Shown: positions 1-59,743 of the stretch, in pieces | Position numbering within the stretch: position 1 is the stretch's first letter | Layout: each line of letters begins with the position of its first letter | Assembly: GCA_037833965.1 (NCBI GenBank) | Contig: AP031355.1 | Span: 4,179,501-4,243,500, forward strand | Direction: 5' to 3' | Length of the DNA stretch: 64,000 bases | Source: Marchantia polymorpha subsp. ruderalis | Lineage: Eukaryota > Streptophyta > Marchantiopsida > Marchantiales > Marchantiaceae | Position numbers and translations under genes: made by a program | The notes under the pieces: generated by a model | What the model was told of the DNA's origin: nothing | Database searches by the model: none | Seen by the model: only the letters and a program-made list of their open reading frames with translations

Positions 1-2106
1 GTAGGGAGTGCTGGAAGTCACGGCCGGAAGTTTCCCTGTACTCGCGGTCGGAAGGGGTGTAGGGGGCCTAACTGCCTTCCGGTCGTCGGATGTCATTCCG
101 GCGCCCAGTGCTTCCTTGATGAGGTGACTCACCTCATCTTTGATGTCCGGAAGGTAATCTCGAGTCCGGAACTCTTCTGAATACCTGTCCGCCTTTTCTG
201 AGTTCTGCTCCGGCTGGTTGTTTCTCATAGCCGGAGGTGTACCCGGCCTTCTCCTCTGGCCTTCTCTAACTTCTTTAGACTTCCTCCTTTCTTCCCTACG
301 CTCGAGGCGGCGAGTGTCCTCGTGGCCTTCTCCTTTCCTCTTCGAACTTCGGGTTTCTACCCGACCGCACATTACTTCTTCCTCTGGCCATACTTCGTCT
401 CCTTCAGCTGGGTCCAGACTCAGTTCTACCTGGTTGACTTGCACTTCTTCCTTGCCCGGTGTTGATACGAAACGCACGGCTGGCCTAGGGATTTGGGGCT
501 GGTCACATTCAGCTGCTGTATGTCCGGACTTCTTGCAATTGCTGCACAATGGTGCATACCCCATTGGCTTCCTCGGGTGGGGACAACTTGGCGCGTAATG
601 CCCCATGTCTCCGCAGTTGTAGCAACCATCGAATTGTGGTCGAGGTCGGTTGTGATTGCCTGGAGGTGCCATGCGTCTTGGTGGGAGTGTACCCGCCATT
701 TCCCTCGGAACAAAGCGCGGTATATGCACCGGTGGGTTCGGAGTTGTAGCTGGAGCTGTCTGTACCGAGTAGGCGGTGTCCTCAACCTGCTCAGCATAAT
801 ACATAGGCGGCTCAGCATAATACATGGGGTTCTCCCACTGTGGTGCCCATTCGACCGCATTCACTGGGTAAGATGGCCTCGCGGACATGCACTCCGTGTT
901 GGCATGTCCCACCTGTCCGCACGTAGTACACCAGAGATTCGCTCGTTGTCTCGCAGGTGATTTACGTCGGTCTTGGCCTCCCACTACATGAACTTTCAGG
1001 TCCGCAAAATTCTTCACCAGGTTGTCTACCTTGGCTGCGATGTCCCCTTGAGTCTTCACTGGGATTCCCTTACCTCGATCCTTCTTCTTGATCGCACTGC
1101 GTTTCTTCTTCCGTCTTTCTTCTTCTGAAGATGACGAGTCCTCTTCCTCTTCCGAGGAAGAACTTGATTCGGAGGAACTTGATTCTTCTGTCGAGGAAGG
1201 CGAGTTCCTTCTCTTCCGACGTCCGCCTTGCGACTTCTTCTTCGTCGACCGTCGGTCGCGTCTTCGAGTGTCAAGGGTTGACGTCTCAAAGGTCTCCGCG
1301 GAAGCTATCACATCTTGGATTGTGTCAGTCTTGCCTCTCCTACAGAAGGTCTCCATTTCTCTTGAGAGCCCTGTCACATACCAATCCACTGCCTGTTGTA
1401 CCGAATACGGTTCTCCCGGGCCTGTCTTCGGAATTCGATCTAGGAGGTCTTGGAATCTCTCAGTGTAGTCTCGAAGATTCTCCTTCCGCTCGCGTCGAAG
1501 ATTTCGAAGCCGGGTCAGAACTCGACTGTCATATCCGAGTTCGCGGAACCGCTTCAGAAACTTTTCCTTGAGCTGAGCCCAGGTCCGGATGCCAGTGGGG
1601 TCGGTGCTCTCATGGTTGTACCAACTACGCGCTCGTTTGCGTAGCAGGCTAGGAAAGATTCGTAATCTGTCTTCATCACTGGTCTCACGATTGGCGATGG
1701 AGACAGACTCGAAGAGCTTTATGTATGAATCTGCATCATCGTCGTCGCCCGTTCCCGTGTATCTTGGATACGAATGTTTGGTGGTAGGTTGGGAAAACAC
1801 CTGGCGGAGATTGGCTTGATGTTCTGCCATCGGTGATCCTGTCGACGGACTGATCCTAGGTTGGCCAAACTCAGGAAGAGTTCCCGTCGGAGGGATGTCC
1901 AATAGAACTGTTAGCTCAATGCTCTCGGTAGGTGAACTGGAACGCCTTTGTCTTCCAGTAGTCGGTGATGGCGATCTTTCTGCAGAGTCCTCACCGGGAG
2001 TCTTCTTTTTAGTTCGCCGTTTTGTTTCCACGGCTTTTTCTGAATCTCGACGGAGTTTCCGTGTGGCTCTCGCACTCAGGTTTCCCACACTATCGCTTGT
2101 CGACAT
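1..2106 (-). CDS. Ty3/gypsy retrotransposon Gag polyprotein, 3' end outside window
   Basis: The minus-strand frame is open from an ATG at 2106 to the window edge (702 codons, no stop), directly after a TGA. Seen: a Retrotrans_gag-type region around residues 140-225 (RARSWYNHES, then LKEKFLKRFREL and YTERFQDLLDRI); a Ser/Glu-rich acidic stretch near 303-342 between Lys/Arg-rich segments; and three CCHC zinc knuckles (C-X2-C-X4-H-X4-C) starting near residues 393, 495 and 521 (CTTCGQVGHANTEC, CYNCGDMGHYAPSC, CSNCKKSGHTAAEC). In this family Gag forms the cytoplasmic particle and the knuckles bind the element's RNA. The PBS and LTR lie upstream at 2150-7053. Protease, RT and integrase would lie left of the window. 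No stop or frameshift is visible, so this copy may be young. Gag identity is secure; whether the element is complete is unknown. Confidence 0.9.
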   Translation of the reverse strand, partial: MSTSDSVGNLSARATRKLRRDSEKAVETKRRTKKKTPGEDSAERSPSPTTGRQRRSSSPTESIELTVLLDIPPTGTLPEFGQPRISPSTGSPMAEHQANLRQVFSQPTTKHSYPRYTGTGDDDDADSYIKLFESVSIANRETSDEDRLRIFPSLLRKRARSWYNHESTDPTGIRTWAQLKEKFLKRFRELGYDSRVLTRLRNLRRERKENLRDYTERFQDLLDRIPKTGPGEPYSVQQAVDWYVTGLSREMETFCRRGKTDTIQDVIASAETFETSTLDTRRRDRRSTKKKSQGGRRKRRNSPSSTEESSSSESSSSSEEEEDSSSSEEERRKKKRSAIKKKDRGKGIPVKTQGDIAAKVDNLVKNFADLKVHVVGGQDRRKSPARQRANLWCTTCGQVGHANTECMSARPSYPVNAVEWAPQWENPMYYAEPPMYYAEQVEDTAYSVQTAPATTPNPPVHIPRFVPREMAGTLPPRRMAPPGNHNRPRPQFDGCYNCGDMGHYAPSCPHPRKPMGYAPLCSNCKKSGHTAAECDQPQIPRPAVRFVSTPGKEEVQVNQVELSLDPAEGDEVWPEEEVMCGRVETRSSKRKGEGHEDTRRLERREERRKSKEVREGQRRRPGTPPAMRNNQPEQNSEKADRYSEEFRTRDYLPDIKDEVSHLIKEALGAGMTSDDRKAVRPPTPLPTASTGKLPAVTSSTPY

Positions 2107-2149
2107 TCACCGAGCATTGCTGCTCAAGGTTTCTGGTGTTGACGCACTG

Positions 2150-2167
2150 TCCCCGGCAGCGGCGCCA
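2150..2167 (-). promoter_or_regulatory. Primer binding site, tRNA-Asp type
   Basis: The minus strand reads TGGCGCCGCTGCCGGGGA. Plant tRNA-Asp ends in TCCCCGGCAACGGCGCCA, so 17 of 18 positions pair. This PBS type is typical of Athila/Tat-like Ty3/gypsy elements. It begins 22 nt after the LTR end (2190), which is further than usual, and lies 44 nt before the gag ATG. Confidence 0.85.
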
Positions 2168-3081
2168 AAAAGAAGTTGTCGGCTCCTTATGTAATAACCC
2201 ACCAAAGGCTAAAACTGCAGTATGGTGGTAAAAAGATCGAACCCACAGGGACAGAGGCAACACACAGAGTAAAAGTGTCACATTTAACAGACTTTTGGTA
2301 GAGTTTGAATTCTAGGCGACTGTCACTCCCAGAAATACTGCAGTGCTCGACTCGGAGGCTCGACTCGGAGGAGGATCTCAACTCGGAGGATGCTCGGAGG
2401 ATGCACGGTACAGCTTGGTCACTCAACACACACACACACACCTGAAACTGGCAAAAAGCACAACTCGGAGGTCGGTCAGGACCTCCGCTTCGGATTTCAG
2501 GAGGAAAGTGTCTCGCAAGTTCACTCAGAGGTTCTGCAGGAAGTGCCTCCCACTCCGGCTTTTACTGCCCTTCCGCCAGGAACTAGCGGGGGTACCCGGA
2601 CTGGACTTCTCACTTCGGAACGAAGCCTCTACGTACGCCGTGGACGTCACCCTCGACTATCACACAAAACGCAGGGAGTGCAGACCCGACTGAGAACTTA
2701 CTGAAAACACGATCCAGTAACACACACAACCTGAATTACAAACCAAGGTTTACACGAAGTAATGAAACTTCACATTGGCATTCAGGGGAAACTTCCCGTA
2801 GGAGTACAATCAGGATATGTCACTCGAAGGAGTAAGGGGGAACTGTTCAAGTATCTAACTCGCAGCCGGCTCTGAGTATCAGAAATCACCCGCAGGTGCA
2901 GATCCGCACTACTCAAGTCTCTAACCGGGTACTAGCTCTGAACATTCAGCCGAAGGCCTTCAACTACAACATACGGTAACTTCGCTATGCTGCAGCTTCT
3001 CTACGTGGTGCCAGGACCAAAATGCACAAACACGCCAAGAAAGTGAGTTCCTGATCTGCACTTCCGAAACTGGAAGAGTCC

Positions 3082-3110
3082 CAAGGCAAAACGCCTTGAT
3101 CTACTTTATA
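3082..3110 (-). promoter_or_regulatory. LTR core promoter A1: TATA box plus adjacent palindrome
   Basis: The minus strand has GAGTATAAAGTAG, with TATAAA at 3110-3105. A 6-bp inverted repeat CAAGGC-AAAAC-GCCTTG lies at 3082-3098, just upstream of the expected transcription start (~3080). Both elements are conserved in every LTR of the window, with a paired base change in family B. The promoter lies downstream of the LTR ORF, which places the ORF in U3. Confidence 0.65.
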
Positions 3111-3143
3111 CTCTCAAAAGATCCTAACTAGCACTACGCTATC

Positions 3144-5699
3144 CTATCTACCACTCGCAGCATCTGCGCGAAACCAAACTACTCTACTGCACTCAGCAGA
3201 TCCGGTGCTGCGCCTCCTGCGCGCCGGACTGCTCCGCTTACTGTCTCTACCTTGCCAGTCTTCCGACCGGCTGCGTAACCCCAGGCGTCGGAGCGCTGTG
3301 GTGACTTCCGACTGCAAGTGCGCCATAGTGTCGCGCGCACCCGACAAGAAGGTTTCTAATTTTCTCGCCACTCGCCGCCGACTCCGACTGTCACCTTCCG
3401 TCAATGCCGCCGCCCGAAGCTCGAACTCCCTGAGTGTAACCCTCTCTTGAGCTGCCACCTCCCAATGGGTGTATCCGTTTAGACAACGAGTCACCCGTGC
3501 CGCCAACTCTCCTCGTACCCTGCAGCTGCTCTCCACCTCTGCCAGCTGCATTTCTAAATCCGCACGTTGTGCCCTCCAATCCGAGCACTCGGTTTGCAAG
3601 TTGCACAACAACTCCTCATCCTCCTTGCGGGCTCGTTGACTTTCCTCTAAGGCGCGCGTCTGGCGCGCAAGCTCGGCTGCTAGGACTTTGTTCTGTCTCC
3701 GCTCCTCCTGCAGTTCCGACTCGATCTTTGCCTGTATTAGTTCGGCCTCCGCCTGACTCTTCGTCGCCGCATCCTCCTTCTGCTGCTGCAAGGCTTGGTA
3801 CAGCTTCTGGGTGACCGCCAGGTGTTGTCGGAGGGCGGTGTTCCTATCCACATATACTCCGCATCTAGAGGCCCACCTTGCCACCTTGCTCCTCGTCCTT
3901 CGCCTGATTGTCTCCACATAAGACTGCGGTTTTAAGGCACTTGCGTATTTGGATGTCTTGCGATCCAGATATCGCAGGAGTGGAACTATCTGTTCGCACA
4001 GCACCCCTGTTGGCGTTTTCTGCACTGAATCCTCTTCTTGCTCTTCCGAGCTCGTCTCATCCTCAGTCTCGAGGATCTCAGTCGCCACCGAATCCCTTGG
4101 CGACTCCCTGGGACTGTGGCGCGCAGCAGCTTCTGCTGCGACTGCTGCTCCACTGCCTGCTAAAATATCCAGGGCAGTGGGAGATCCCACTGCTTGAGCC
4201 CCTGTTCCGGCTTGATCTTCGGTTTGTGAAGGGGTCGACGCCGCAGCGACTTTTGTCACTCTTGCACCGCCCGCTTCTGCTGCTTGTCCTTCCGGCGCAA
4301 TCTGCGCGGAAGGTGTCCTTGCTGAAGGTGCGTCCGCCGAAGGCGTCCGCACACTGGTCGTTGACTCCATCCGTCTCGCAGTCGGCGAATCCGGCTGACT
4401 CTCTGTTGTCCGACTCGCAGTCGGCCGACCAGCAGTTGTCCGACTGGGAGTCGGATACACCCTACGCGTCTTGACTCCACTTGGCCTGTTTGCTGGTGGC
4501 GTTCTTCCAGAAGTGCCTTCCGCCGAAGACGACCCTCTAAGGATTGTTGGCTCGTCAGCCAAACTCTCTTCCGCTTCCGGCCTGCTGTCCGGTTCAACGC
4601 GCCGTTCAGTTGGCCTTCCTTCCGCTTGTCGACCTTCAGTCATCCGACTCGCAGTCGGACGATCGTCAGTCCGTCCATCTCCTCCCGAAGACCGTGGTGC
4701 CTTCTGTGCAGAGGTTTCTGCCGTCTTCCCTAGGACCTGAGCAATTATCTCTTCCTGTGTGAGATTCCGCCGGGTCAGAGTTCGCCTGGTCTCCTCAGTA
4801 ACAGTTGGCATTCTGCGTGCCCTCTGTTTTGGTCGACTGTGAGGCTCGGGGGTGGGCCGACCACGAGTCGGCGCAGCTGGTACTTCCGGCTGCCTGTCCT
4901 CAGGTCTCTCATCCCACTTCCGCTTGCGCGGAATGCGCTCACTTCGACGTTCTTCTGCTGCTCTGTCTGGAGCCGGAGCCGGAGGCGTACTGGCAGGTTC
5001 CTCGTCCGGATCCGTGTCTACTTCGGCCTCCCTCGAATATCTACCTGGATAAGACCGGCTCAGCTGCGGAAACCGAGTTTTCTCAGCATTCGTCAAACAT
5101 CCCATCGCCCGGTAAAACACGATTAAGTAAGGCGATAGATGATTGAGCGTTCCTCCCCTCTCTTCTTGCGCATGTTGGCGCGTCACCTTCCACAGGAGCC
5201 GTGCCCAATGCACCGGAGCTCCTGACAACACCAGCTCCACGAACTCTACCTGCCAACCATGCATGTAAGCGGTCTTGGTCGGCTGCAATATCTGCAGCAA
5301 TGCTGTCGCGACATTTCTCCGCAATCGATCCTTGTAATCCCGAGTCCGGAAACCGTTCTTGGGATGTCTAGCCACCTTGAAGAGCTCATTGTAAGAGACT
5401 TCTTCCTCCTGGGACACTTTCACGCTGTCGGCCTCGAAGAGGAGATCCCCTTCCTCGCCGGCACACCTGCCCAACACCTGCGCCCAATTGCAAATTTCCC
5501 ATCTCTCTGGGTGTGGGCGAAATCCACGGGAAGGCTTGTGTCTCTCTTGCAGGTACTCGCGCACCATCTCCGGACACGTCCAATTCCACCCCCAGAGGAG
5601 AAAATCGAGCTTCAGCCTCGTCAGCACATCTTGAAATGCGCGTAGACCGATCTGCGGCACCCTGAGTGGAGACACTCGCAGCTGGGGAACCTTCGACAT
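3144..5699 (-). CDS. U3-encoded protein of family A LTR (851 aa), unknown function
   Basis: Uninterrupted ORF wholly inside the LTR and in the element's sense. I chose the ATG at 5699 because it aligns with the start of the family B ORF (MSKVPQLR against MTRPGRLR, then PLR-PQ-GLRAF in both) and both share an AACGCAATG context. Residues ~5-240 form a conserved domain (LDFLLWGWNW, WAQVLGRCAG, KNGFRTRDYKDRLRRN, GGTLNHLSPYL). A Pro/Arg/Thr/Ser-rich linker (~245-545) carries repeated TPS-, SARTPSA- and PTASR-like motifs, then an acidic patch (EDETSSEEQEED). A long heptad-rich coiled coil (~600-740) and a basic Ser/Arg tail ending in FRADAAS follow. No RT, protease, zinc-finger or membrane segment is visible. 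The N-terminal domain faintly recalls plant mobile or transposon-protein domains, but I cannot assign it. This copy is the only intact one in the window. Confidence 0.75.
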   Translation of the reverse strand: MSKVPQLRVSPLRVPQIGLRAFQDVLTRLKLDFLLWGWNWTCPEMVREYLQERHKPSRGFRPHPERWEICNWAQVLGRCAGEEGDLLFEADSVKVSQEEEVSYNELFKVARHPKNGFRTRDYKDRLRRNVATALLQILQPTKTAYMHGWQVEFVELVLSGAPVHWARLLWKVTRQHAQEERGGTLNHLSPYLIVFYRAMGCLTNAEKTRFPQLSRSYPGRYSREAEVDTDPDEEPASTPPAPAPDRAAEERRSERIPRKRKWDERPEDRQPEVPAAPTRGRPTPEPHSRPKQRARRMPTVTEETRRTLTRRNLTQEEIIAQVLGKTAETSAQKAPRSSGGDGRTDDRPTASRMTEGRQAEGRPTERRVEPDSRPEAEESLADEPTILRGSSSAEGTSGRTPPANRPSGVKTRRVYPTPSRTTAGRPTASRTTESQPDSPTARRMESTTSVRTPSADAPSARTPSAQIAPEGQAAEAGGARVTKVAAASTPSQTEDQAGTGAQAVGSPTALDILAGSGAAVAAEAAARHSPRESPRDSVATEILETEDETSSEEQEEDSVQKTPTGVLCEQIVPLLRYLDRKTSKYASALKPQSYVETIRRRTRSKVARWASRCGVYVDRNTALRQHLAVTQKLYQALQQQKEDAATKSQAEAELIQAKIESELQEERRQNKVLAAELARQTRALEESQRARKEDEELLCNLQTECSDWRAQRADLEMQLAEVESSCRVRGELAARVTRCLNGYTHWEVAAQERVTLREFELRAAALTEGDSRSRRRVARKLETFLSGARDTMAHLQSEVTTALRRLGLRSRSEDWQGRDSKRSSPARRRRSTGSAECSRVVWFRADAASGR

Positions 5700-7053
5700 T
5701 GCGTTGCCTGCACACACAAACGTTCTCCCTTTCGCTCACTCTCTCACAATCGCCACTGCGCGTCGGCCACTCAAGCACTGACTGCTCACTCTCTCTGCGC
5801 TCGTTCAAGATCGCTACTCCCAATTCTTTCAAGGTCCGCCAAGATCCTTGCGCAACTCGTCTCCGCACTCTCTACTCTCACTGCAGGTCGCTCCGCCCTT
5901 GCGCGTAATCTTGGAACTGGAAATTGCAAAGTCAAGAATGAGAGAATGAGACTGGAGCGCAGTCTTTTCTTCTCCGATTTCAAGAACGTCCAACGTTCTT
6001 ACTGGTTGCAACGTACGCAGCCGGCTATACGGCTTAACGGTTCGCCCTTTGCATGCGCGAATTCACGTCTCCGCATTGCGCGCATTCGCATGCTGAAACG
6101 TTGAATTCTCCCGCCGCCGCCACCTTCCGGACTCGAGTCCGCTGCAGGGTATACGTCGGCCCTGTTATCTTTTCCTAACCCGCCCTTCTCCGGAGGCGTG
6201 TCGTCGCTGGTGCGTTCATTATCCGTCGGCGCCTTGCTGGAGGCGCACATCCAGCCGGAGCGAATTACGCCGGCGCGCAGTCGTACCGCCTATTTTGTCC
6301 TTTATGCCTCGTCCGTTGCTGCCAGCGCATATCCGTCAGCGCAACTCATGCCAGCGCATCCGGCCGTCAGCGCCACGTCGGAGGCGTACATCCGACCGGC
6401 GCTTTCCTTCCATGAACAGCCGCCAAGGGCGCTTCCGACTCTGAGTTGGTTTCCTCCTGTGAGCGCGTGATTCCGCCGAAGGCGCATCGCCGAGGGCGTA
6501 CGGGAATCCTTTCCGGCTGTGAACCCTAGCGCGAACGGCGCATGTCCGGCTACGAGTTTTCCGACGCTCATAACTTCTCCATTCCTGATCCATCTCCGGC
6601 GCTCTTGGACTCGTTAGAACGAGCGTCCCGAGCTCTTTCTAATGCAACTTCAACCAACTGGATCTACCGTGTATCCCGATTGTTATGAAGGTTTTCCCTT
6701 TCCGCGCTAGCGGCGCTTCGCCGAAGGCGCACTCATGGTCGGATGCCTTTAGAGGTCCGGGCCCTTCTCCTGACGTCTTTAGCAAAACCTTCTCCTGAGG
6801 TGTCTGCGCCGGAAGCGTAGCTTCCTTATACGCTAGAGGCGCGTGAGTAGAGACACCTTAAAAAGGAGCCTTTGCCGAGGGCGCCGAAGACGTGGGCGTT
6901 GGTACATCCGACTACGTGATTCTTGGTGCCCTCGTGACGATCTCATCAATCCACTCTATTTAGCGTACCCTTCTCTAGCTACAAACACTGCTTTGGTACT
7001 AGTTTTCTAAAATTGTTTAAATTCTGCAAAAAAACAAAAAGTGTGTTACCACA

Positions 7054-8447
7054 CGCAGCAACGGAATCACCTGCTCAGAGAGCGCCGCCGCCGGCGCTCC
7101 AACAATTTCCTCCTCCTCCTCCTCGGTGTCTCCTGCTCCTGACATTTCTTCCGTGGAGCCTCCGTCGTCATCATCCGAGTGGAGAATTTCAGTCGCCATT
7201 GAATGCGTCGGCGACTGCCCCGAGTGGGGCTGCACGTCCTCGACGTGTGCTGCCTGCGAAGGCACGGCTGCGGCCTCGCTGCTCGTCGCCAAAATGTCTA
7301 AGGCGGAAGGCGAATGTACCCGCGCGGCATCCCCGTCGCTTACTTGTTGATTGCCTCCCGCATTCTCTCTGTCGCCGTCGTCCGTCGCCGAAGGCGATCG
7401 AGCGGAGGGTGGCTGCGCGGGGTTGGATTGCGCATCGCGCATCGAGATGTCGTCCCGCGGACAGTCACTCCGCTCTTCCGTCTGCTGCTCCCTCGATCGG
7501 TCCGTGGGGGCTGTGCCCGGCCCGTGCGCAGGCGCATTTGCCGGCGCCTTGTCCGCCGCAGGCGTAGCGCCGCGGACATCTATCGCCGAAGGCGACATGG
7601 CCGGGGGCCGCACGCCCGATGTTCCTCGGCCTATAGGCCCTACCGCCGAAGGCGCATCTATCGGCGGACTTCCCGCCGATGGTGCGGCCTCCGCACGATC
7701 TCTGCTCGTATACCCTCGGCTCGAAGGCCCTGGCGCCGAAGGCGCGAATTGCGGCGCGTGGTGCGCCGGAGGGTCTGGCCCCGAGGGCCGGTGTCTCGTA
7801 GGCGGTTCTTCCGCCGGCTCCTTCCCCTTCCTACGTTGGAACGGGGGTGATTCTTGCCTGTGCACAGGCGGCACGTGCGGAGGTGTTCTGTGCACAGGTG
7901 ACCTGTGCACAGGCGACCTGTGCACAGGCGAGCGCCTGTGCACAGGCGGACTGCTCCTTCCCACGCGTAAGCGTAGATCCACGTCCACTTGTGTTCGCCG
8001 GTCCGCGGAGGCTCGTCCGTCCGCGGAGGTTCGCCTGTGCGCAAACGGAACCTCTGTCCGCATCGCACGTGGTAACTCCGGAGGCCCTTGGCCCGTAGGC
8101 GGCCTCTCTCCCGACGAGGTTGCAGCGTGGCCCGTCGCTCCTGCGGTCGTCCGCGCTTCCTCTCGCCTCTCCGGCGACGCACTTCCTATCTCCGTCGCAA
8201 TCGTCGCCGTGTCTGCACTGTCAGCTGGCAACACCAGTCTGCGTGCCTTCTGCTTCGGCCGGCTGTATGGCCGGCATAGGACAAAATTTGATTCCCCCTT
8301 CCGCGTAGGCGGAATTCGCGCCGGTGGCGAAATCCTTCCGCCGAAGGCGACCGCCTCCGTTTCTTCCAGTAGCGATAACTCCCTAAGTCCTCGTCCGTTC
8401 CAAGCGTTCTTGGGCTCGTTAGAATCAGCGCGTCGAGCTCTTTCCAA
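7054..8447 (-). pseudogene. Fragment of family B U3 protein, chimeric with upstream U3
   Basis: An open minus-strand frame that joins U3 leader sequence to the Pro/Arg-rich linker of the family B protein (from SRPKQKARRLVLP on) through the 1.85 kb deletion of copy B3. It lacks the conserved N-terminal domain and has no ATG at its beginning. The 3' part stops where A1 inserted, within LSEQVIPLLR, so the coiled coil is missing. The linker contains repeated PVHR units encoded by copies of the palindrome CTGTGCACAG (7858-7945). The open frame across the deletion is probably chance. Confidence 0.75.
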
Positions 8448-8765
8448 CGAGACCCTAACTTGGTCAAGGCGCCCGAGGGTTTACCTAATTACGGGGGGTT
8501 TCCCTACAGCCGCGGACGCAACCTCCGAAGGCGGATTTTGCGCCTTGCGCCGTAGAGATCCTAACTGCGGAACTCGCAGGGAGGGTGGTGCCTGTGCTTG
8601 CTGCGGCACCCCAAATCCCAGATTCTATAAGATCCCTCGAGAATCCCCGCGATCTTCCGGATTCACTCTGTTTTGATGTACCGAAGGCTATTTACAATGT
8701 TGCCAGGGTACAGTTTTCCAAAAATGTTTTAATTTCCTCAAAATTGCCAAAAGTGGGGTACCACA
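7054..8765 (-). mobile_element. Family B LTR, copy B3: truncated and internally deleted
   Basis: The right end (GTGGGGTACCACA at 8753-8765) is the 5' terminus of a family B LTR as in copies B1 and B2. The left end is cut at 7054 by element A1; the sequence there (GCAGCAACGGAATCACC) continues in B1 near 19650. Compared with B1, about 1.85 kb is missing between a site near 8267-8275 and the ATAGGACAAAA segment, removing the start and conserved N-terminal domain of the LTR ORF. The remainder of this LTR would lie left of A1, outside the window. Confidence 0.85.
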
Positions 8766-9774: not shown

Positions 9775-10641
9775 GTGAGAAAAGAAATATTCAGTGACAA
9801 GTTCAAAAAAAAAAACTCGCCAAAGTTTTGAAGGTATTTAGTATATTTTCTGTATGATTTAATTTTGATGTGAATTTTTACGGATCAGATCCAGAATCTC
9901 CACGCATACACCATGTTAACAGGAACGCAAATCTACACACTCATATATTTTGACCTCCACATCTTCAGAATAGTCCTTCTCAAGATTGTGGCACAAGTTT
10001 CCAGTGCAATCGCTACCACACGTGATCATGCGTTGTTCATGTGCAAGACAAAGTGGGCTCCTCCCCCAGAGGCCATCGAGATTCGTTACAGGTTTCTTCC
10101 TGTAGCTATGGGTCATATGCATGGACTAACAATTCAACCATAACAACCAGTTGCCTTCACTTATTCGATCTTGCAGAAACACCGCCTACTACAAGAGGGG
10201 TTCATGCTTGCCTTTCTGGTACGGGAAAAGGTTTTGGTTTCCATGCACCCCACTCTAGATGGGGTCCTTGGATTATCTTGATTTCATTACAGCTCTTCAT
10301 ATAGACTAGAATTCATGAGAAGTTAGAAAAATTACACACAAACTCTAGCCAGGGTTATCGATACCAAGGCTCACAGCACAACTTGAAGTTCCTGGAATAT
10401 ACCATCTGATTCAAGTGGATTTGGACCGCCTCGTACGGTCTTCGAGTCCTCCATCCAGGTGGACCTGGACTTGCGTGACATCCTTCTGCAAAAGGCTTAC
10501 TTGGCACTGGAGATTCCTGTATGAGATAGCCCTTCTCCTCAAGCTTGATTTGTGGACGCGGATCCGGTCTAGGTCACTGCAGGTGCGATGACTTCTTCAA
10601 AATCGCCGCCCTGACTTCTACCCAAACTGAGAAACATGGTG

Positions 10642-10648
10642 TATAAAT
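10642..10648 (+). promoter_or_regulatory. Probable TATA box of GLP1
   Basis: TATAAAT within GGTGTATAAATTC, 241 bp before the ATG, in a block conserved between the two GLP copies. The corresponding site of GLP2 is where the LTR nest inserted. Confidence 0.5.
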
Positions 10649-15892: not shown

Positions 15893-16789
15893 TGTAATAA
15901 CCCACCAAAGGCTAAAACTGCAGTATGGTGGTAAAAAGATCGAACCCACAGGGACAGAGGCAACACACAGAGTAAAAGTGTCACGTTTAACAGACTTTTG
16001 TAGAGTTTGAATTCTAGGCGACTGTCACTCCCAGAAATACTGCAGTGCTCGACTCGGAGGCTCGACTCGGAGGAGGATCTCGACTCGGAGGATGCTCGGA
16101 GGATGCACGGTACAGCGTGGTCACTCAACACACACACACACACACCTGAAACTGGCAAAAAGCACAACTCGGAGGTCGGTCAGGACCTCCGCTTCGGATT
16201 TCAGGAGGAAAGTGTCTCACAAGTTCACTCAGAGGTTCTGCAGGTAGTGCCTCCCACTCCGGCTTTTACTGCCCTTCCGCCAGGAACTAGCGGGGGTACC
16301 CGGACTGGACTTCCCACTTCGGAACGAAGCCTCTACATACGCCGTGGACGTCACCCTCGACTATCACACCGAACGCAGGGAGTGCAGACCCATCTGAGAA
16401 CTTACTGAAAACACGATCCAGTAACACACACACACAACCTGAATTACGAACCAAGGTTTACACGAAGTAATGAAACTTCACATTGGCATTCAGGGGAAAC
16501 TTCCCGTAGGAGTACAATCAGGATATGTCACTCGAAGGAGTAAGGGGGAACTGTTCAAGTATCTAACTCGCAGCCGGCTCTGAGCATCAGAAATCACCCG
16601 CAGGTGCAGATCCGCACTACTCAAGTCTCTAACCGGGTACTAGCTCTAAACATTCATCCGAAGGCCTTCAACTACAACATACGGTAACTTCGCTATGCTG
16701 CAGCTTCTCTACGTGGTGCCAGGACCAAAATGCACAAACACGCCAAGAAAGTGAGTTCCTGATCTGCACTTCTGAAACTGAAAGAGTCC

Positions 16790-16818
16790 CAAGGCAAAAC
16801 GCCTTGATCTACTTTATA
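16790..16818 (-). promoter_or_regulatory. LTR core promoter A2
   Basis: TATAAA at 16818-16813 on the minus strand with the palindrome CAAGGC-AAAAC-GCCTTG at 16790-16806, as in A1. Confidence 0.55.
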
Positions 16819-16851
16819 CCCTCAAAAGATCCTAACTAGCACTACGCTATC

Positions 16852-17796
16852 CTATCTACTACTCGCAGCATCTGCGCGAAACCAAACTACTCTACTGCAC
16901 TCGGCTGATCCGGTGCTGCGCCTCCTGCGCGCCGGACTGCTCCGCTTACTGTCTCTACCTTGCCAGTCTTCCGACCGGCTGCGTAACCCCAGGCGTCGGA
17001 GCGCTGTGGTGACTTCCGACTGCAAGTGCGCCATAGTGTCGCGCGCATCCGACAAGAAGGTTTCTAATTTTCTCGCCACTCGCCGCCGACTCCGACTGTC
17101 ACCCTCCGTCAATGCCGCCGCCCGAAGCTCGAACTCCCTGAGTGTGATCCTCTCTTGAGCTGCCACCTCCCAATGGGCGTATCCTTTTAGACAACGAGTC
17201 ACCTGTGTCGCCAACTCTCCTCGCGCCCTGCAGCTGCTCTCCACCTCTGCTAGCTGCATTTCTGCTTCCACACGTTGTGCCCTCAAATCCGAGCACTCGG
17301 ATTGCAAGTTGCGCAACAACTCCTCATCCTCCTTGCGGGCTCTTTGACTTTCTTCTAAGGCGCGCGTCTGGCGCGTAAGCTCGGCTGCTAGGACTTGGTT
17401 CTGTCTCCGCTCCTCCTGCAATTCCGACTCGATCTTTGCCCGTATTAGCTCGGCATCCGCCTGACTTTTCGTCGCCGCATCCTCCCTCTGCTGCTGCAAG
17501 GCTTGGTATAGCTTCTGTGTGAACGCCAGGTGTTGTCGGAGGGCGGTGTTCCTATCCACATATACTCCGCACCTAGAGGCCCACTTTGCCACCTTGCTCC
17601 TCGTCCTTCGCTTGATAGTCTCCACATAAGACTGCGGTTTTAAAGCATTTGCGTATTTGGATGTCTTGCGATCCAGATATCGCAGGAGTGGAACTATCTG
17701 TTCGCACAGCACCCCTGTTGGCGTTTTCTATACCGAATCCGCTTCCTGTTCTTCCGAGCTCGTCTCATCCTCAGTCTCGAGGATTTCAGTCGCCAC
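16852..17796 (-). pseudogene. C-terminal fragment of family A U3 protein (copy A2)
   Basis: Encodes the region from the acidic patch through the coiled coil to the C-terminal FRADAAS. The stop lies at 16852. A premature TAG occurs at the codon before KTPTG (GTACAG in A3, GTATAG here). The N-terminal two thirds are missing at 17796. Nonfunctional as a full protein. Confidence 0.85.
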
Positions 17797-17799: not shown

Positions 17800-18745
17800 T
17801 GTAATAACCCACTAAAGGCTAAAACTGCAATATAGTGGTAGAAAGGTCGAACCCACAGGGACAGAGGAACACACAGGGTACAAAGTGTCACGTTTTAACA
17901 GACTATTGAGGAGTTTGAATTCTCAGGCAACTGTCACTCCCAGAAATACTGCAAGTGTCCACTCGGAGCGCACTCGGAGGTCGCACAGTGCAGCGTAACA
18001 CACACACACACACACACACCTGAAACTACAGAAACACAACTCAGAGATCCGTTAGGACCTCTACTCAAGATTTCAGGGGGGAAAGTCTCTCGCGAGCACA
18101 CTCGGCAAAGCTGCGGGCAGTGACTTCCAACTCCGGCTTTTACAACACTTCCACTAGCTTGCTGCTAGTGTAGGAAACCCGGTTTGGACTGCCTACTTCG
18201 GATCGAAGTCACTCCTACGCGGTGAACAACACTCTCAACTCACAAAACGCGCAGAGAACACAGGTCCGCACTGAAGGACTCACTGAGAAACATTCCAGTA
18301 ACACAACAACAGTCTATTGAAGAGTTTGAATTCTCAGGCACTTGTCATTCCCAGAAATACTACAGGGGTTACCCTCAAGGCACCTGCTGCAGCGTAACCT
18401 GAATTTACAACCAAGGCTTACACGAAGTAACAAAACTTCACTTTGGCATTCAGGGGAAAAATCCCAAGGAGTACAATCAGAAAGAAACACTCGAAGGGGT
18501 AGGGGCGAAACTGTTCAAGTATCTAACTAGTCACTAGCTCTGAGCATCGGCAGTCACCCGCAGGTGCAGATCCGAACTACTCAAGTCTCTAACCAATGTA
18601 CTAGCTCTGAACATTCGGCCGCAGGCCTTCAGCTACAAAATGCGGAACGCTAAGTTGTAACTCCTCGTGCGTGGTGACAGAACTCAAGGACACAAACACG
18701 CAAAGGAAATGGGTTCCTGATCTGCACTTCTGATGGGAAAGAACC

Positions 18746-18774
18746 CCAGGCAAAACGCCTGGAACTATTTTATA
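18746..18774 (-). promoter_or_regulatory. LTR core promoter B1
   Basis: TATAAAA at 18774-18768 (minus) with the palindrome CCAGGC-AAAAC-GCCTGG at 18746-18762. Relative to family A one base pair of the stem has changed on both sides (A/T to C/G). Confidence 0.6.
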
Positions 18775-18810
18775 CCTTCTAAGTCCTACCTAACACTACA
18801 CTGCACTACG

Positions 18811-21698
18811 CTACACGCCTGCACGGAACCACGCTACACTACACTCCGCGGAACCTGTACTACGTCTCCTGCGCGGCCGACTGCCGCGCACTAACTCCCT
18901 ACCCTGCCAATCTTCCGCTCGACTGCGCAGTCCCAAACGCTGCAACGCCGCGGACACCTCCACTTCGAGGGCGGACATGGTATCCTGTGCCTTCGACAGA
19001 AAGGCATCGAGCTTCTTTGCTACCTTCCGTGGACTCCTACTGTCGCCTGACAACAACCCGGCTGCGCGCAATTCAAACTCACGCAGTGTGAGTTTCTCCT
19101 GCGCCTTCACTTCCCAGTGGGCGTAGCCCTTGAGACAGTGGGCGACTCGCCTCGCCGTCTCCACCTTCGTGCGATCCGCCTCCTTCCTGCGATCCTCTTC
19201 AATTATCACTAATTGCGATTCGGCTTCAGCACGTTGCGCTCTCAATTCGCCACACTCTGACTGTAACCTGCGGATTAACTCTTCATCCGTCTGCCGTGCG
19301 AGCTGACATTGTTCCAACAACCGCGTCTGTCGCACGAGCTCCTCTGACAAAATCCGATTCTGGGCCTGCTCAGAAATGAGTGCTTCCTTGACCTTCACCT
19401 GCTCCTTGGTGAGCTCGTCCAGTTTCTCATCCTTCATCTTCTCGGAGTGCTTGTAGAATTTCTGATTAAGTTTGTACTGACCCCACAAGCATGCATGCTT
19501 CTCCTTCAATTCCCTCAACTCCTGGTCCACTCTAGCTAATAGCTTGCTGGTGTGGACTTTAGTGTGAGTCCGCCTGCGCACTAACTCGATGTAAGATCCC
19601 GGCTGGAGTGGGTCGGCGTATTTATCGACCTTGCGATCCAAGTACCTCAGCAACGGAATCACCTGCTCAGAGAGCGCCGCCGCCGGCGCTTCAACAATTT
19701 CCTCCTCCTCCTCCTCGGTGTCTTCTGCTCCTGACATTTCTTCCGTGGAGCCTCCGTCGTCATCATCCGAGTGGAGAATTTCAGTCGCCATTGATTGCGT
19801 CGGCGACTGCCCCGAGTGGGGCTGCACGTCATCGACGTGTGCTGCCTGCGAAGGCACGGCTGCAGCCTCGCTGCTCGTCGCCAAAATGTCTAAGGCGGAA
19901 GGCGAATGTACTCGTGCGGCATCCCCGTCTCTCGCTTGTTGGTTGTCTATCGCGTCCTCTCTGCCGCCGTCGCCCGCCGCCGAAGGCGATCGAGCGGAGG
20001 GTGGCTGCGCGGGGTTTGATTGCGCATCGCGCACTGAAATTTCATCCCGCGGACAGTCACTCCGCTCCTCCGTCTGTTGCTGCTCCCTTGATCGGTCCGT
20101 GGGGGCTGTGCCCGGCCCGTGTGCAGGCGCAATTGCCGGCGCCTTGTCCGCCGCAGGCGTAGCGCCGCGGACATCCATCGCCGAAGGCGACATGGCCGGG
20201 GGCCGCTCGCCCGTTGTCCCTTGGCCTATAGGCCCTACTGCCGAAGGCGCATCTATCGGCGGACTTCCCGCCGATGGTGCGGCCTCCGCACGCTCCCTGC
20301 TCGTATCTCCTCGGCTCGAAGGCCCTGGCGCCGAAGGCGCAAAGTGCGGCGCGTGGTGCGCCGGAGGGTCTGGCCCCGAGGGCCGGTGTCTCGTAGGCGG
20401 TTCTTCCGCCGGCTCCTTCCCCTTCCTACGTTGGAACGGGGGTGATTCTTGCCTGTGCACAGGCGACACGTGTGGAGGTGTCCTGTGCACAGACGACCTG
20501 TGCACAGGTGAGCGCCTGTGCACAGGCGGACTGCTCCTTCCCACGCGTAAGCGTAGATCCACGTCCACTTGTGAACGCCTGTCCGCGGAGGCTCGTCCGT
20601 CCGCGGAGGCTCGTCTGTGCGCAAACGGAACATCTGTCCGCGTCGCACGTGGTAACTCCGGAGGCCCTTGGCCCGTAGGCGGCCTCTCTCCCGTCGAGGT
20701 TGCAGCGTGGCCCGTTGCTCCTGCGGTCGTTCGCGCTTCCTCATGCTTCTCTGGCGACGCACTTCCTTTCTCCGTCGCAATCGTCGCCGTGTCCGCACTG
20801 TCGGCTGGTAACACCAGTCGGCGTGCCTTCTGCTTCGGCCGGCTGTATGGCTCGCACAGCGGCCGCGGTCGAATGGGAGCAGAGGGTTCTTGATGCTGCT
20901 CCTCTTCAGACTCTTCCCTCCATCGCCGCTTCCGCGGCACTCGTGCTGCAGGAGTGTGTCTCCCTTCGTCCCTCCGCCTTGATGGGGTAGAAGTCGGTGA
21001 CTCCTCTGCATCAGTGTCGACCTCATTCTCCCGCACATACTTCCCGGGATGGTCGATGGACAATGGCGGAAAATGTTCAAGCTCCGCCGCTGTCAAACAA
21101 TTCCGCTGTCGATAAAAATTGATGAGGAAAGGAGAAAGATGGTTTAGAGTTCCCCCTTCTCCTCAAACGCGTGCTGTCGCATCATCCTGTGCAGGATGCT
21201 CGCCCAGTGAATTGGAGTTCCCTCGATGACGCACTCCACAAAAGAGACCTGCCATAATGTGATGTAGCAGGCGCGGTGCGGCTGCAGTAATTGCATCAGC
21301 GCCGCGGACAAAGTCCGGCGAAATCGATCCTTGTAATCACGGGTCCTGTACCCATTCTTGGTAGACCTCCCGGTCTTGAACAGCTCCACAAATTGCGCCT
21401 CTTCCTGCTTGGTCACCTTGATGCTCTCACTGTCGAAAAGGAGATGCCCTGGCATGCCCGCACATCTTCCCAACGCCTACGCCCAATCTTGGACTGTCCA
21501 CCGATCAACATGCGGACGCAATCCGCGCGAGGGTGGTCCCTGTGGCTCTAGCCACTCGCGCACCATATTCGCACAGATGTAGTTCCATCCCCATAGCAAG
21601 AAATCGAGCTTTCTTGCTATTAAGCGCTCCTCGAAGGCGCGCAGCCCGTTCTGTGGTAGGCGAAGTGGCACCATCCGCAATCGGCTCGGTCTCGTCAT
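18811..21698 (-). pseudogene. U3 protein of family B, copy B1 (about 960 codons, broken)
   Basis: Homologue of the family A U3 protein. Conserved N-terminal domain (PLRLPQNGLRAFEERL, LDFLLWGWNY, GYRTRDYKDRFRR, HLSPFLINFYR), a linker with SRPKQKARRLVLP, PVHR repeats and EGERPP-like blocks, an acidic patch (DDDDGGSTEEMSG), then a coiled coil (ALISEQAQNRILSEELVRQTR) and a basic tail ending WFRAGV. Start by alignment with family A and an AACGCAATG context at 21698. Broken by a TAG in place of CAG at ~21476 and by one missing C in a C-run at ~21152 (five here, six in B2). The frame is otherwise open over 760 codons, so decay is recent. Confidence 0.85.
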
Positions 21699-23198
21699 TG
21701 CGTTCCTGGGGTTCGCTCGCCCGCTCATTCTACTTCCGCACCGCCCGAGCCTCTTTCTCTCTCGGCAAACTCTAATCGCCCTCAATTCCAACTCACGCGC
21801 ATTCACTTCTCCCTCAATCAACAAGAAATCTCCTGTGCGACGACGTCGAGAATGTTCAGCAGCCAGCAGATGGATGCGCGCAGCGCGCACAAGAGATTGG
21901 AATCGCGAATTCAAGAATGGGACGTTCTCCGCCGCCCGGTCGAAGGTCATGGTCGGCTCTTGCTCGTGAAGAACGTCTCACTTGATGGCCGCGCCGGCTG
22001 TACGCTGGAACGGTCTTCGCTCTCACGCGCGGCTTCACGCTCCGCCGTCGTCGATTAAACTCTCACGCTCGAATTGGCGGATTTGAACTCCGCGAGCGTA
22101 TTACCCCGCGGACATGCGGGCGTAGCGCCGAAGGCGAGTTTTCCGCCTTGCGCGGTACACTTGTTCGTACCGCCCCTCGGCCAATCCTCCTCTGCCTTGA
22201 CGCGTGTGTCCGCATGTCGGACAAAAGTTCAACTCCTGCCTGTGCGCAGGCAGGAGCCTCGGCGGATTCTCCGCCGGCGCGGAACTTGAACATCCTCCTG
22301 TGCACAGGCGTTCGCCTGTGCGCAGGCGAATTCCGTGCGCGGCGTCGCGCTGGCGCGGAAGGCGTTGACCGTGGTCAGCCGTCTCCGTCCAGTCTGTCCG
22401 TTCCTTGTCTCTCCGTCGGCGCTTCCGCCGCCGCAACTCCGTCCGTCCAAGAGCGCATCCACCCGTCCCGTCCACATGGTCCGTACCGATTTGATTACTC
22501 TGGCGGCTCTTCCGCCGTACGCGGCGCTGCGCTGGCGCGGAAGGCGTCGTACACTTTCTACCTCACAAGGCGCATTTCTAGGGCCCAAGGCGGATTTCCC
22601 GCCGACGCCGAAGCGCCTGTGCACAGGCGGTCGCCTGTGCGTAGGCGGACTTCGCGCCTCCCCTAACCCTACTTCGCCTGTGCACAGGCGAATTCCTTCG
22701 TCCGCGCATAGGACAAAACTTGATTCCCCCTTCCGCGCAGGCGGAATTCGCGCCGGTGGCGAACTCTTTCCGCCGTAGGCAACCGCCTCCGTTTCTTCCA
22801 ATAGTGATAACTCCCTAAGTCCTCATCCGTTCCAAGCGTTCTTGGACTCGTTGGAATCAGTGCGTCGAGCTCTTTCCAACGGGACCCTAACTTGGTCAAG
22901 GCGCCCGAGGGTTGACCTAATTATGGAGGATTTCCCTACAGCCGCGGACGCAACCTCCGAAGGCGGGTTTTGCGCCTTGCGTCGTAGGGGTCCTAACTGC
23001 AGAGCTCGCAGGGAGGGTGGTGTCTGTTTTTTACTGCTGCACCCCAAATCCCAAATTCTACAAGATCCCTTGAGAATCCCCGCGATCTTCCGGATTCACT
23101 CCGTTTTGTTGTACCGAAGGCTATTCACAATGCTGCCAGGGTACAGTTTTTCAAAAATGTTTTAATTTCCTCAAAATTGCCAAAAGTGGGGTACCACA

Positions 23199-23203
23199 AC
23201 TGT
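23199..23203. repeat. Target site duplication ACTGT of B1, right
   Basis: Matches 17795-17799. It overlaps the first three bases of LTR A3, so B1 landed 3 bp inside that LTR end. Confidence 0.85.
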
Positions 23204-24097
23204 AATAACCCACCAAAGGCTAAAACTGTAGTATGGTGGTAAACAGATCGAACCCACAGGGACAGAGGCAACACACAGAGTAAAAGTGTCACGTTTAACA
23301 GACTTTTGTAGAGTTTGAATTCTAGGCGACTGTCACTCCTAGAAATACTGCAGTGCTCGACTCGGAGGCTCGACTCGGAGGAGGATCTCAACTCGGAGGA
23401 TGCTCGGAGGATGCACGGTACAGCGTGGTCACTCAACACACACACACACACACCTGAAACTGGCAAAAAGCACAACTCGGAGGTCGGTCAGGACCTCCGC
23501 TTCGGATTTCAGGAGGAAAGTGTCTCACAAGTTCACTCAGAGGTTCTGCAGGTAGTGCCTCCCACTCCGGCTTTTACTGCCCTTCCGCCAGGAACTAGCG
23601 GGGGTACCCGGACTGGACTTCCCACTTCGGAACGAAGCCTCTACATACGCCGTGGACGTCACCCTCGACTATCACACCGAACGCAGGGAGTGCAGACCCA
23701 TCTGAGAACTTACTGAAAACACGATCCAGTAACACACACACACAACCTGAATTACGAACCAAGGTTTACACGAAGTAATGAAACTTCACATTGGCATTCA
23801 GGGGAAACTTCCCGTAGGAGTACAATCAGGATATGTCACTCGAAGGAGTAAGGGGGAACTGTTCAAGTATCTAACTCGCAGCCGGCTCTGAGCATCAGAA
23901 ATCACCCGCAGGTGCAGATCCGCACTACTCAAGTCTCTAACCGGGTACTAGCTCTAAACATTCAGCCGAAGGCCTTCAACTACAACATACGGTAACTTCG
24001 CTATGCTGCAGCTTCTCTACGTGGTGCCAGGACCAAAATGCACAAACACGCCAAGAAAGTGAGTTCCTGATCTGCACTTCTGAAACTGAAAGAGTCC

Positions 24098-24126
24098 CAA
24101 GGCAAAACGCCTTGATCTACTTTATA
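24098..24126 (-). promoter_or_regulatory. LTR core promoter A3
   Basis: TATAAA at 24126-24121 (minus) and the palindrome CAAGGC-AAAAC-GCCTTG at 24098-24114. Confidence 0.55.
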
Positions 24127-24159
24127 CCCTCAAAAGATCCTAACTAGCACTACGCTATC

Positions 24160-24537
24160 CTATCTACTACTCGCAGCATCTGCGCGAAACCAAACTACTC
24201 TACTGCACTCGGCTGATCCGGTGCTGCGCCTCCTGCGCGCCGGACTGCTCCGCTTACTGTCTCTACCTTGCCAGTCTTCCGACCGGCTGCGTAACCCCAG
24301 GCGTCGGAGCGCTGTGGTGACTTCCGACTGCAAGTGCGCCATAGTGTCGCGCGCATCCGACAAGAAGGTTTCTAATTTTCTCGCCACTCGCCGCCGACTC
24401 CGACTGTCACCCTCCGTCAATGCCGCCGCCCGAAGCTCGAACTCCCTGAGTGTGATCCTCTCTTGAGCTGCCACCTCCCAATGGGCGTATCCTTTTAGAC
24501 AACGAGTCACCTGTGTCGCCAACTCTCCTCGCGCCCT
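24160..24537 (-). pseudogene. C-terminal piece of family A U3 protein (copy A3)
   Basis: Encodes the end of the coiled coil and the basic tail (GYAHWEVAAQER to FRADAAS). Separated from the rest of the ORF (29875-32052) by solo LTR B2. Confidence 0.85.
24533..24537. repeat. Target site duplication GCCCT of solo LTR B2, left
   Basis: GCCCT precedes B2 and is repeated at 29870-29874. The uninterrupted site in A2 reads CTCGCGCCCTGCAGC. Confidence 0.95.
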
Positions 24538-25474
24538 TGTAATAACCCACTAAAGGCTAAAACTGCAATATAGTGGTAGAAAGGTCAAACCCACAGGGAC
24601 AGAGGAACACACAGGGTACAAAGTGTCACGTTTAACAGACTATTGATGAGTTTGAATTCTCAGGCGACTGTCACTCCCAGAAATACTGCAAGTGTCCACT
24701 CGGAGCGCACTCGGAGGTCGCACAGTGCAGCGTAACACACACACACACCTGAAACTACAGAAACACAACCCAGAGACCCGTTAGGACCTCTACTCAAGAT
24801 TTCAGGGGGGAAGTCTCTCAAGAGTACACTCAGCGAAGCTGCGGGTAGTGACTTCCAACTCCGGCTTTTACAACGCTTCCACTAGCTTGCTGCTAGCGTA
24901 GGAAACCCGGTTTGGACTGCCTACTTCGGATCGAAGTCACTCATACGCGGTGAACAACACTCTCAACTCACAAAACGCGCAGAGAACACAGGTCCGCACT
25001 GAAGGACTCACTATGAAACATTCCAGTAACACAACAACAGTCTATTGAAGAGTTTGAATTCTCAGGCACTTGTCATTCCCAGAAATACTACAGGGGTTAC
25101 CCTCAAAGCACCTGCTGCAGCGTAACCTGAATTTACAACCAAGGCTTACACGAAGTAGCAAAACTTCACTTTGGCATTTAGGGGAAAAATCCCAAGGGAG
25201 TACAATCAGAAAGAAACACTCGAAGGTGTAGGGGCGAAACTGTTCAAGTATCTAACTAGTCACTGGCTCTGAGCATCGGCAGTCACCCGCAGGTGCAGTT
25301 CCGAACTACTCAAGTCTCTAACCAATGGACTAGCTCTGAACATTCGGCCGAAGGCCTTCAGTTACAAAATGCGGAACGCTAAGTTGTAACTCCTCGTGCG
25401 TGGTGACAGAACTCAAGGACACAAACACGCAAAGGAAATGGGTTCCTGATCTGCACTTCTGATGGGAAAGAACC

Positions 25475-25503
25475 CCAGGCAAAACGCCTGGAACTATTTT
25501 ATA
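25475..25503 (-). promoter_or_regulatory. LTR core promoter B2
   Basis: TATAAAA at 25503-25497 (minus) and the palindrome CCAGGC-AAAAC-GCCTGG at 25475-25491, as in B1. Confidence 0.55.
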
Positions 25504-25539
25504 CCTTCTAAGTCCTACCTAGCACTACACTGCACTACG

Positions 25540-28395: not shown

Positions 28396-29869
28396 TGCGT
28401 TCCTGGAGTTCGCTCGCCCGCTCATTCTACTTCCGCACCGCTCGAGCTCCTTTCTCTCTCGGCAAACTCTAATCGCCCTCAATTCCAAATCACGCGCACT
28501 CACTTCCCCCTCAACCACCAAGAAATCCCCTGTGCGGCGACGTCGAGAATGTTTAGCAGCCAGCAGATGGACGCGCGCAGCTCGCACAAGAGATTGGAAT
28601 CGCGAATTCAAGAATGGGACGCTCTCCGCCGCTCGGTCGAAGGTCATGGTCGGCTCTTGCTCGTGGAGGACGTCTCACTTGATGGCCGCGCCGGCTCTAT
28701 GCTGGAACGGTCTCCGCTCTCACGCGCGGCTTCACGCTCCGCCGTCGCCGATTAAACTCTCACGCTCGAATTGGCGGATTTGAACTCCGCGAGCGTACAA
28801 CCCCGCGGACATGGGAGCGCAGCGCCGAAGGCGAGTTTTCCGCCTTGCGCGGTACACTTGTTCGTACCGCCCCTCAGCCAATCCCCTTCTGCCTCGACGC
28901 GTGTGTCCGCATGTCGGACAAAAGTTCAACTCCTGCCTGTGCGCAGGCAGACTCCTCGGCGGATTCTCCGCCGGCGCGGAACTTCATCCTCCTGTGCACA
29001 AGCGCTCGCCTGTGCGCAGGCGAATTCCGTCCGCGGCGACGCGCTGGCGCGGAAGGCGTTGACCGTGGTCAGCCGTCTCCGTCCAGACTGTCCGTTCCTT
29101 GTCTCTTCGTCGGCGCTTCCGCCGCCGCAACTCCGTCCGTCCAAGAGCGTATCCACCCGTCCCGTCCGCATGGTCCGTACGGATTTGATTATTCTGGCGG
29201 CTCCTTGCTCGTCCGCGGTGCTGTGCTGGCGCAGAAGGCGCCGTACACTTTCTACCTCACAAGGCGCATTTCTATGGCCCAAGGCGGATTTCCCGCCGAC
29301 GCCGAAGCGCTTGTGCACAGGTGACCTCCTCTGCGTAGGCGGACTTCGCGCCTCCTCAAACCCTACTTCGCCTGTGCACAGGCGAACTTCCTTCGTCCGC
29401 GCATAGGGCAAAACTTGATCCCCCTTCCGCGTAGGCGTAATTCCCGCCGGTGGCGAACTCCTTCCGCCTAAGGCGAACGTCTACGTATCTTCCAATAGTG
29501 ATAACTCCCTAAGTCCTCATCCGTTCCAAGCGTTCTTGGACTCGTTGGAATCAGTGCGTCGAGCTCTTTCCAACGAGACCCTAACTCGGTCAAGGCGCCC
29601 GAGGGTTGACCTAAATATGAAGGATTTCCCTACCGCCGCGGACGCAATCTTCCGTAGGGATCCTAACTGCAGAGCTCGCAGGGAGGGTGGTGCCCATCCT
29701 TACTGCTGCACCCCAAATCCTAGGTTCTACAAGATCCCTCGAGAATCCCCGCGATCTTCCGGATTCACTCTGTTTTGATGCACCGAAGGCTATTTACATT
29801 GCTGCCAGGGTACAGTTTTTTCCAAAAATGTTTTAATTTCCGCAAAATTACCAAAAGTGGGGTACCACA

Positions 29870-29874
29870 GCCCT
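29870..29874. repeat. Target site duplication GCCCT of B2, right
   Basis: Matches 24533-24537. Confidence 0.95.
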
Positions 29875-59726: not shown

Positions 59727-59743
59727 TTTGCATGTATCAACGA

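Follow-up and report, generated by a model that had tools for sequence, protein, structure and literature searches.

LTRs are ordinarily regarded as noncoding and as holding control signals. A gene in U3 is nevertheless a real precedent, as the first-pass annotation of this DNA had stated for MMTV: in the available excerpts of two accounts, the majority of sag lies in U3 and the gene is present in every LTR, U3 shows promoter activity (P2) in addition to that of the standard promoter, and the LTRs are more widely conserved owing to their coding role (PMC4667437, PMC9412291). Plant OTA elements carry extra ORFs of other kinds, among them the plant mobile domain of Ogre, TRP28/Transposase_28 of Retand and ORF-1 of Athila, and Grande carries gene23. 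According to extracts of three papers, these ORFs are thought to be regulatory, some of the elements have very long LTRs, and gene23, which is nuclear, possesses a promoter of its own (PMC7264820, PMC6317226, PMC11963269). In the extracts of one of these papers, the additional ORFs of plants are internal to the element and either precede or follow gag-pol (PMC7264820). In the rice elements Retrosat2, RIRE3 and RIRE8, whose LTRs measure about 3 kb or more, gag-pol is preceded by an ORF0, which its authors, in the part of their article available here, did not find outside the grasses (PMC3485330). No description of a plant gene inside an LTR was found in the open-access literature, covered mostly by titles and abstracts; such ORFs may stand uncommented in the tables of a plant survey available in part (PMC6317226).

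The 64,000-nt stretch of Marchantia polymorpha subsp. ruderalis DNA analysed here (the window) contains a gag-bearing element whose 5' LTR, A1, encloses a long ORF (Table 1). The limits of this LTR proposed earlier are confirmed, with TG at 2190, CA at 7053 and ends shared with other copies in the window. On the plus strand, the end at 2190 reads TGTAATAACCC / TGTAATAACC, and the other end, finishing at 7053, reads TTACCACA. The second LTR, the second flank and pol of the element lie beyond the window. Because the second LTR lies outside, the anatomy of A1 was proven through relatives inside the window, and these are the copies compared below. Pfam assigns gag to Retrotrans_gag (PF03732, E 3.1e-14) and Ty3_capsid (PF19259, E 2.4e-7), with two stretches of zinc knuckle (PF00098).

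Table 1. Features of the LTR gene, its element and related LTR copies in the window
Feature	Position	Strand	Basis or remarks
gag	1..2106	-	702 open codons from ATG at 2106 as far as the window edge; zinc knuckles, Retrotrans_gag
PBS-like site TGGCGCCGCTGCCGGGGA	2150..2167	-	TGG-initial; begins 22 nt after LTR A1 end
LTR A1, 5' LTR of gag-bearing element	2190..7053	-	4,864 bp; shared end sequences; gag and PBS-like site adjacent
Predicted R-U5	2190..3080	-	predicted start about 30 nt past TATA box
TATAAA	3105..3110	-	34 bp past ORF stop codon
851-codon ORF inside LTR A1	5699-3144	-	sense with gag; translation, copy comparison
N-terminal domain, aa 1-235	4995..5699	-	most constrained part; omega 0.076 (A1/A3b); 58% identical to B2
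Start-codon context AACGCAATG	5697..5705	-	identical in A1, A3, B1, B2
Conserved noncoding island upstream of ORF	6547..6642	-	candidate cis-element of second promoter
B3, partial family-B LTR	7054..8765	-	ORF interrupted by inserted element A1; one end kept at 8765
ATAAA, empty-site paralog of A2/A3 insertion	10643..10647	+	in duplicated cupin (presumably germin-like) locus
A2, truncated A-family LTR	15893..17796	-	ORF part aa 538-851; left duplication ATAAA 15888-15892
B1, solo LTR, sister family B	17800..23198	-	damaged ORF; TSD ACTGT
A3 3' part, A-family LTR	23201..24537	-	ORF aa 727-851
B2, solo LTR, family B, inserted in A3	24538..29869	-	damaged ORF; TSD GCCCT
A3 5' part	29870..33412	-	ORF aa 1-727; right duplication ATAAA 33413-33417

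As in Ty3/gypsy LTR retrotransposons, TG...CA ends are found in A1, B1, B2 and at the outer ends of A2 and A3, and gag of the A1 element contains a zinc knuckle. Target-site duplications of 5 bp, where 4-5 bp are usual for such elements, flank B1, B2 and the A2/A3 pair, the second flank of A1 lying outside the window. The gag gene, the TG...CA ends and the 5-bp duplications exclude a DNA-transposon reading of the element, as the first-pass annotation had argued. We take the PBS-like site of the A1 element to be of the tRNA-Asp type. In the segment 2150-2189, the 22-nt gap between the LTR end and this site is long for an LTR retrotransposon. A 9-nt self-complement to the LTR was sought in the first stretch and was not found. 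In the available part of a plant survey, a PBS is defined either by a perfect tRNA match within 50 bp or by an imperfect match with TGG at 0-5 bp (PMC6317226).

The window holds five further LTRs or LTR parts, which belong to two families: A2 and A3 to family A, and B1, B2 and B3 to family B. B1 and B2 are each flanked by perfect 5-bp target duplications around a single LTR and are therefore solo LTRs. Identity between A2 and A3 reaches 99.55% across 1,340 bp and 98.4% across another 572 bp, from which we infer that they are the two LTRs of one element whose internal part was lost. The B1 insertion (17795-23203) exactly spans the point where A2 is fused with the end of A3, an odd coincidence. 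The empty site of the A2/A3 insertion is supplied by duplicated cupin genes (10841-11605 and 33653-34369), which are 86% identical over about 1.5 kb and which we presume to be germin-like. Farther along the window, a third LTR type is represented at 52997-53130 by its outer 121-139 bp, which are 75-78% identical to the starts of the A and B LTRs, and a further short match to the A1 U3 lies nearby (52859-52913). This is probably a truncated third family; a tblastn search for a relative of the ORF at this place found none. The window also contains part of a DUF3537-type gene (47122-48210, Pfam E 1.5e-36) and, at 59214-59753, an ORF that we take to be ERF-like. The cupin genes and the DUF3537-type gene suit a land plant as the probable host.

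The ORF lies wholly within LTR A1, in sense with gag, and encodes 851 aa from its ATG, in agreement with the earlier description; a mechanical ORF list gives 857 aa by counting from an upstream GTG. Under a simple base-composition model, the probability of 851 open codons arising by chance at the composition of the ORF is about 2.6e-15. In each LTR copy, of both families, the surviving part of the ORF occupies the same position in the LTR. The start context AACGCAATG is identical in the four copies listed in Table 1, and the sequence preceding it is not conserved between families A and B. An upstream N-terminal extension of the B ORF (28647-28396) found no support as coding sequence, with B1/B2 differences of 6, 4 and 6 over the three codon positions of 84 each. 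Family B also has long plus-strand ORFs antisense to the LTR gene in the GC-rich linker (7351-8676, 19631-20893 and 26615-27589), which are probably by-products of linker composition.

The ORF is under purifying selection, both within and between the families. Between A1 and A3b (A3a and A3b denote the parts of A3), differences at codon positions 1, 2 and 3 number 21, 26 and 73 (of 728, 728 and 727), that is, 73/727 at third positions versus 47/1,456 at positions 1 and 2 (Fisher p 2e-10). When the U3 upstream of the ORF is read in threes in the same register, the counts are 24, 17 and 26 (of 451, 451 and 452; chi-square p 0.35). The codon pattern is unchanged without CpG sites (15/632, 20/592 and 59/605). 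Furthermore, the aligned ORF (727 codons) contains no indels, versus five in the upstream U3, where a sixth, at position 1, is an edge artefact of the range compared. The overall omega of this pair is 0.23 (bootstrap 0.15-0.34). By part, the N-terminal domain (aa 1-235) has 0.076 (0.02-0.16), aa 236-555 have 0.46, and the C-terminal part, as far as available, has 0.27. Synonymous divergence is uneven along the ORF (dS 0.22 in aa 1-235 versus 0.09 in the linker), and the low N-terminal omega is in part due to this high local dS. The untranslated upstream U3 of A1 and A3 diverges by 5.0%, below the 10.0% of the third codon positions, which is odd.

The other pairs, which are not all strong evidence, gave omega values of 0.37 for A1/A2 (0.20-0.70, 313 codons), 0.54 for A1/A3a (0.20-1.88, 125 codons, not significant), 0.39, 0.45 and 0.21 for B2/B1 over three pieces of the ORF, and 0.51 (0.34-0.81) and 0.52 (0.26-1.14) for B2/B3. 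Between the families, the A1 and B2 proteins are 42% identical over 979 aligned columns in a single reading frame, with dN of 0.38 in the N-terminal and 0.42 in the C-terminal part and dS of 1.8 or saturated. We regard it as practically certain that a gene lies in the LTR and is under selection. Alternatively, an ancestral LTR might have captured a DNA transposon or foreign gene that is now a mere passenger, and the ORF has indeed no Pfam relative that links it to retroelement functions. Such a passenger would hardly show purifying selection within and between families (omega 0.23 in A) or an intact ORF where it is linked to gag, and no inverted repeats of at least 40 bp were found in positions 1-20000; we consider this origin very improbable.

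All five detached or interrupted copies of the ORF are damaged, and the sole intact copy is that of A1, joined to gag. A2 is truncated and has one in-frame stop (aa 560); A3 has one in-frame stop (aa 697, in A3b) in addition to the B2 insertion; B2 has two in-frame stops (aa 431 and 631); and B1 has an in-frame stop at aa 74 and a frameshift near aa 182. The ORF is thus kept while the elements copy themselves and decays once detached. Since the intact copy is the one linked to gag and the detached copies are broken, selection acts via the mobile element. The location of A2/A3, with B1 and B2 inside, in a duplicated host-type (cupin) locus would suit a host gene with the LTRs as its duplicated flanks, but the broken state of the five copies and the adjacency of the intact one to gag make this scarcely credible. 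The LTR ends, the duplications, gag and the decay of the detached copies led us to reject both the DNA-transposon and the host-gene readings. The same damage qualifies the suggestion of the first-pass annotation that solo LTRs become dispersed protein-coding units: the gene does sit within the LTRs, but the five detached or interrupted copies in this window are damaged.

The protein consists of the N-terminal domain (aa 1-235), a linker made up of 54% Pro/Ser/Thr/Ala/Gly, and a basic C-terminal part. The linker contains a basic cluster, RKRK in family A and RKRR in family B, at the same aligned place, and the C-terminal part ends in a RRRRSTGSAECS motif common to both families. Searches of the whole ORF against Pfam up to E 1 gave no significant match, and the three N-terminal domains matched 0 families up to E 10; the C-terminal parts gave weak matches below the cut-offs, the best being DUF1690 (A2, E 0.00078). 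Plant mobile domain, Transposase_28 and Athila ORF-1 were absent from these results (whole ORF to E 1, domains to E 10), as was sag, for which the library may hold no model. We considered whether the N-terminal domain distantly resembles domains of plant transposon proteins; this was not confirmed and is not claimed. A profile of aa 1-235 had 0 matches among PDB sequences, and a heptad scan of the 851 aa, in which one of 82 windows reached z 3.7, did not reveal a convincing coiled coil. No relative was found in IMG/VR with the whole protein and a three-row alignment of aa 1-235, or in GTDB genomes with the same alignment; these viral and prokaryote collections are little informative here. Because of the basic clusters and by analogy with the Grande gene23 and TRP28 proteins, the product could be a nuclear accessory factor, a reading to which we give an even chance.

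The TATA box reported earlier just past the ORF (TATAAA, 3110-3105) is confirmed and is the only TATAWA on the sense strand of LTR A1. Finding one TATAWA in 4.9 kb would not be unusual by itself, and the weight lies in its conservation: the box is present in 5/5 LTRs that retain the region (A1, A2, A3, B1 and B2). B2 has one extra TATAAA, inside its ORF. The block after the TATA box diverges by 2.0% in family A and 2.7% in family B, versus 5.0% and 6.8% in the upstream U3 (family A, Fisher p 0.0003, the figures coming from two separate parts of A3). Past the predicted start, A1 and B2 align with 59-92% identity per 60-nt step. Such a TATA box with a slowly changing block behind it would be expected of a promoter followed by R-U5. 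It is thus probable, judging from the LTR sequences, that the ORF lies in U3. The placement in U3 given by the first-pass annotation stands insofar as the end of the ORF is closely followed by a TATA box that both families have conserved; with a predicted start, U3 is the best inference.

Alternatively, the genomic RNA could start in the 1.35 kb before the ORF, which would then be the first cistron in a very long R or leader, and the TATA box at 3110 would have a secondary role or none. In that case the gene would be comparable to the ORF upstream of gag in other plant elements, within a longer LTR. Both the start context and the upstream island (see below) are conserved, and an ORF0 that precedes gag-pol is described in plant elements, as in the available text on Retrosat2 (PMC3485330). 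The sense strand of LTR A1 has, however, no other TATAWA, whereas the one after the stop codon is kept in 5/5 LTRs of two families and is followed by the slowly evolving block. Furthermore, R would have to exceed 2.6 kb, which would be an exceptional length. We regard this alternative as improbable.

Under the preferred placement in U3, the sequence upstream of the ORF may hold a second promoter. The U3 sequence that precedes the ORF (1.2 kb) is hardly alignable between A1 and B2 (47% identity versus 40-45% in ten shuffles), and the parts seen to align are the first LTR bases and the island at 6642-6547. The island is present in 5/5 LTRs retaining the region (A1, A3, B1, B2 and B3); the three B copies match it with E values from 3e-6 to 1e-5. 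As a coding exon it found no support, its translations containing stops and favouring no frame by eye; nor did it as an RNA structure, its folding being not above that of shuffles (z 0.92). In view of this lack of coding or folding signal, the island is likely a protein-binding site of a second promoter, which would be TATA-less, as the candidate region has no TATA box. An enhancer acting on the TATA promoter would fit equally well. On these sequence features, we lean slightly towards the gene having its own promoter in U3.

The ORF could also do without its own promoter if it were read from a 3' subgenomic mRNA spliced from a donor in the leader to an acceptor just before the ORF; this is compatible with a gene in U3 and concerns the expression route. 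The only GT[AG]AGT in LTR A1 is a GTAAGT in U5 (sense 4354), B1 and B2 have GTGAGT at the matching place, and TTTGTGTGTGCAG precedes the start codon in family A. For MMTV sag, transcripts from the 5' LTR are reported in the available excerpt (PMC4667437). The acceptor of this model is weak, since the sequence before the start codon in family B, GCGAACYCCAG, has no pyrimidine tract. In addition, B1 and B2 each have three additional GTGAGT sites, and solo LTRs could not use this route. We therefore consider splicing rather unlikely as the expression route.

Whatever the expression route, a conserved accessory gene in U3 is a likely explanation of the locus. The evidence base is one gag-bearing element, with family B seen as LTRs only. 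We propose that the U3 of the long LTR in a retrotransposon lineage of Ty3/gypsy type houses an accessory gene. The genomic RNA would start downstream of this gene, some 30 nt beyond the conserved TATA box, and the gene would pass to the next generation via the 3' end of this RNA; both steps are strongly suggested by the LTR layout. The gene's own TATA-less promoter would lie within the 1.35-kb part of U3 that precedes the ORF, and its mRNA would end at the ordinary LTR poly(A) site in R. More speculatively, the protein might help the family to transpose or to escape silencing, and it might be supplied in trans by the copies, solo LTRs included while they are intact. The full scheme, a two-promoter LTR that arose independently of betaretroviruses, yields both an mRNA for a trans-acting protein and the genomic RNA, and has intact solo LTRs continue to supply the factor, is put forward tentatively.

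We regard the feature as real, well bounded and unusual: a conserved LTR gene, most likely in U3, of a plant lineage that is probably of the Ty3/gypsy type. Solo LTR formation, the usual route by which genomes disarm such elements, would not remove a gene of this kind at once. Left in a solo LTR, it can survive and may work in trans or be co-opted by the host. If the two-promoter reading is true, each intact LTR is a self-contained gene that outlasts the rest of the element. Surveys that mask LTRs or look for extra ORFs in internal regions could overlook such genes.

The locus provides, beside MMTV, a second case for asking why genes sit in U3, now in plants. It resembles MMTV sag in having a protein gene that probably lies in U3, and the proposed two-promoter layout is parallel. 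Unlike sag, which belongs to an animal betaretrovirus and has only the majority of its length in U3, the 851-codon ORF is wholly within the LTR, and the element is probably of the Ty3/gypsy type and from a plant. The locus shares with the OTA elements and Grande a large ORF other than gag and pol in a big Ty3/gypsy-type element, and with Retrosat2, RIRE3 and RIRE8 the combination of long LTRs and an extra ORF before gag-pol. In contrast to the extra ORFs of the OTA elements and Grande, which are in the internal region, and to ORF0, which is upstream of the gag-pol ORF, the ORF described here lies inside the LTR itself.
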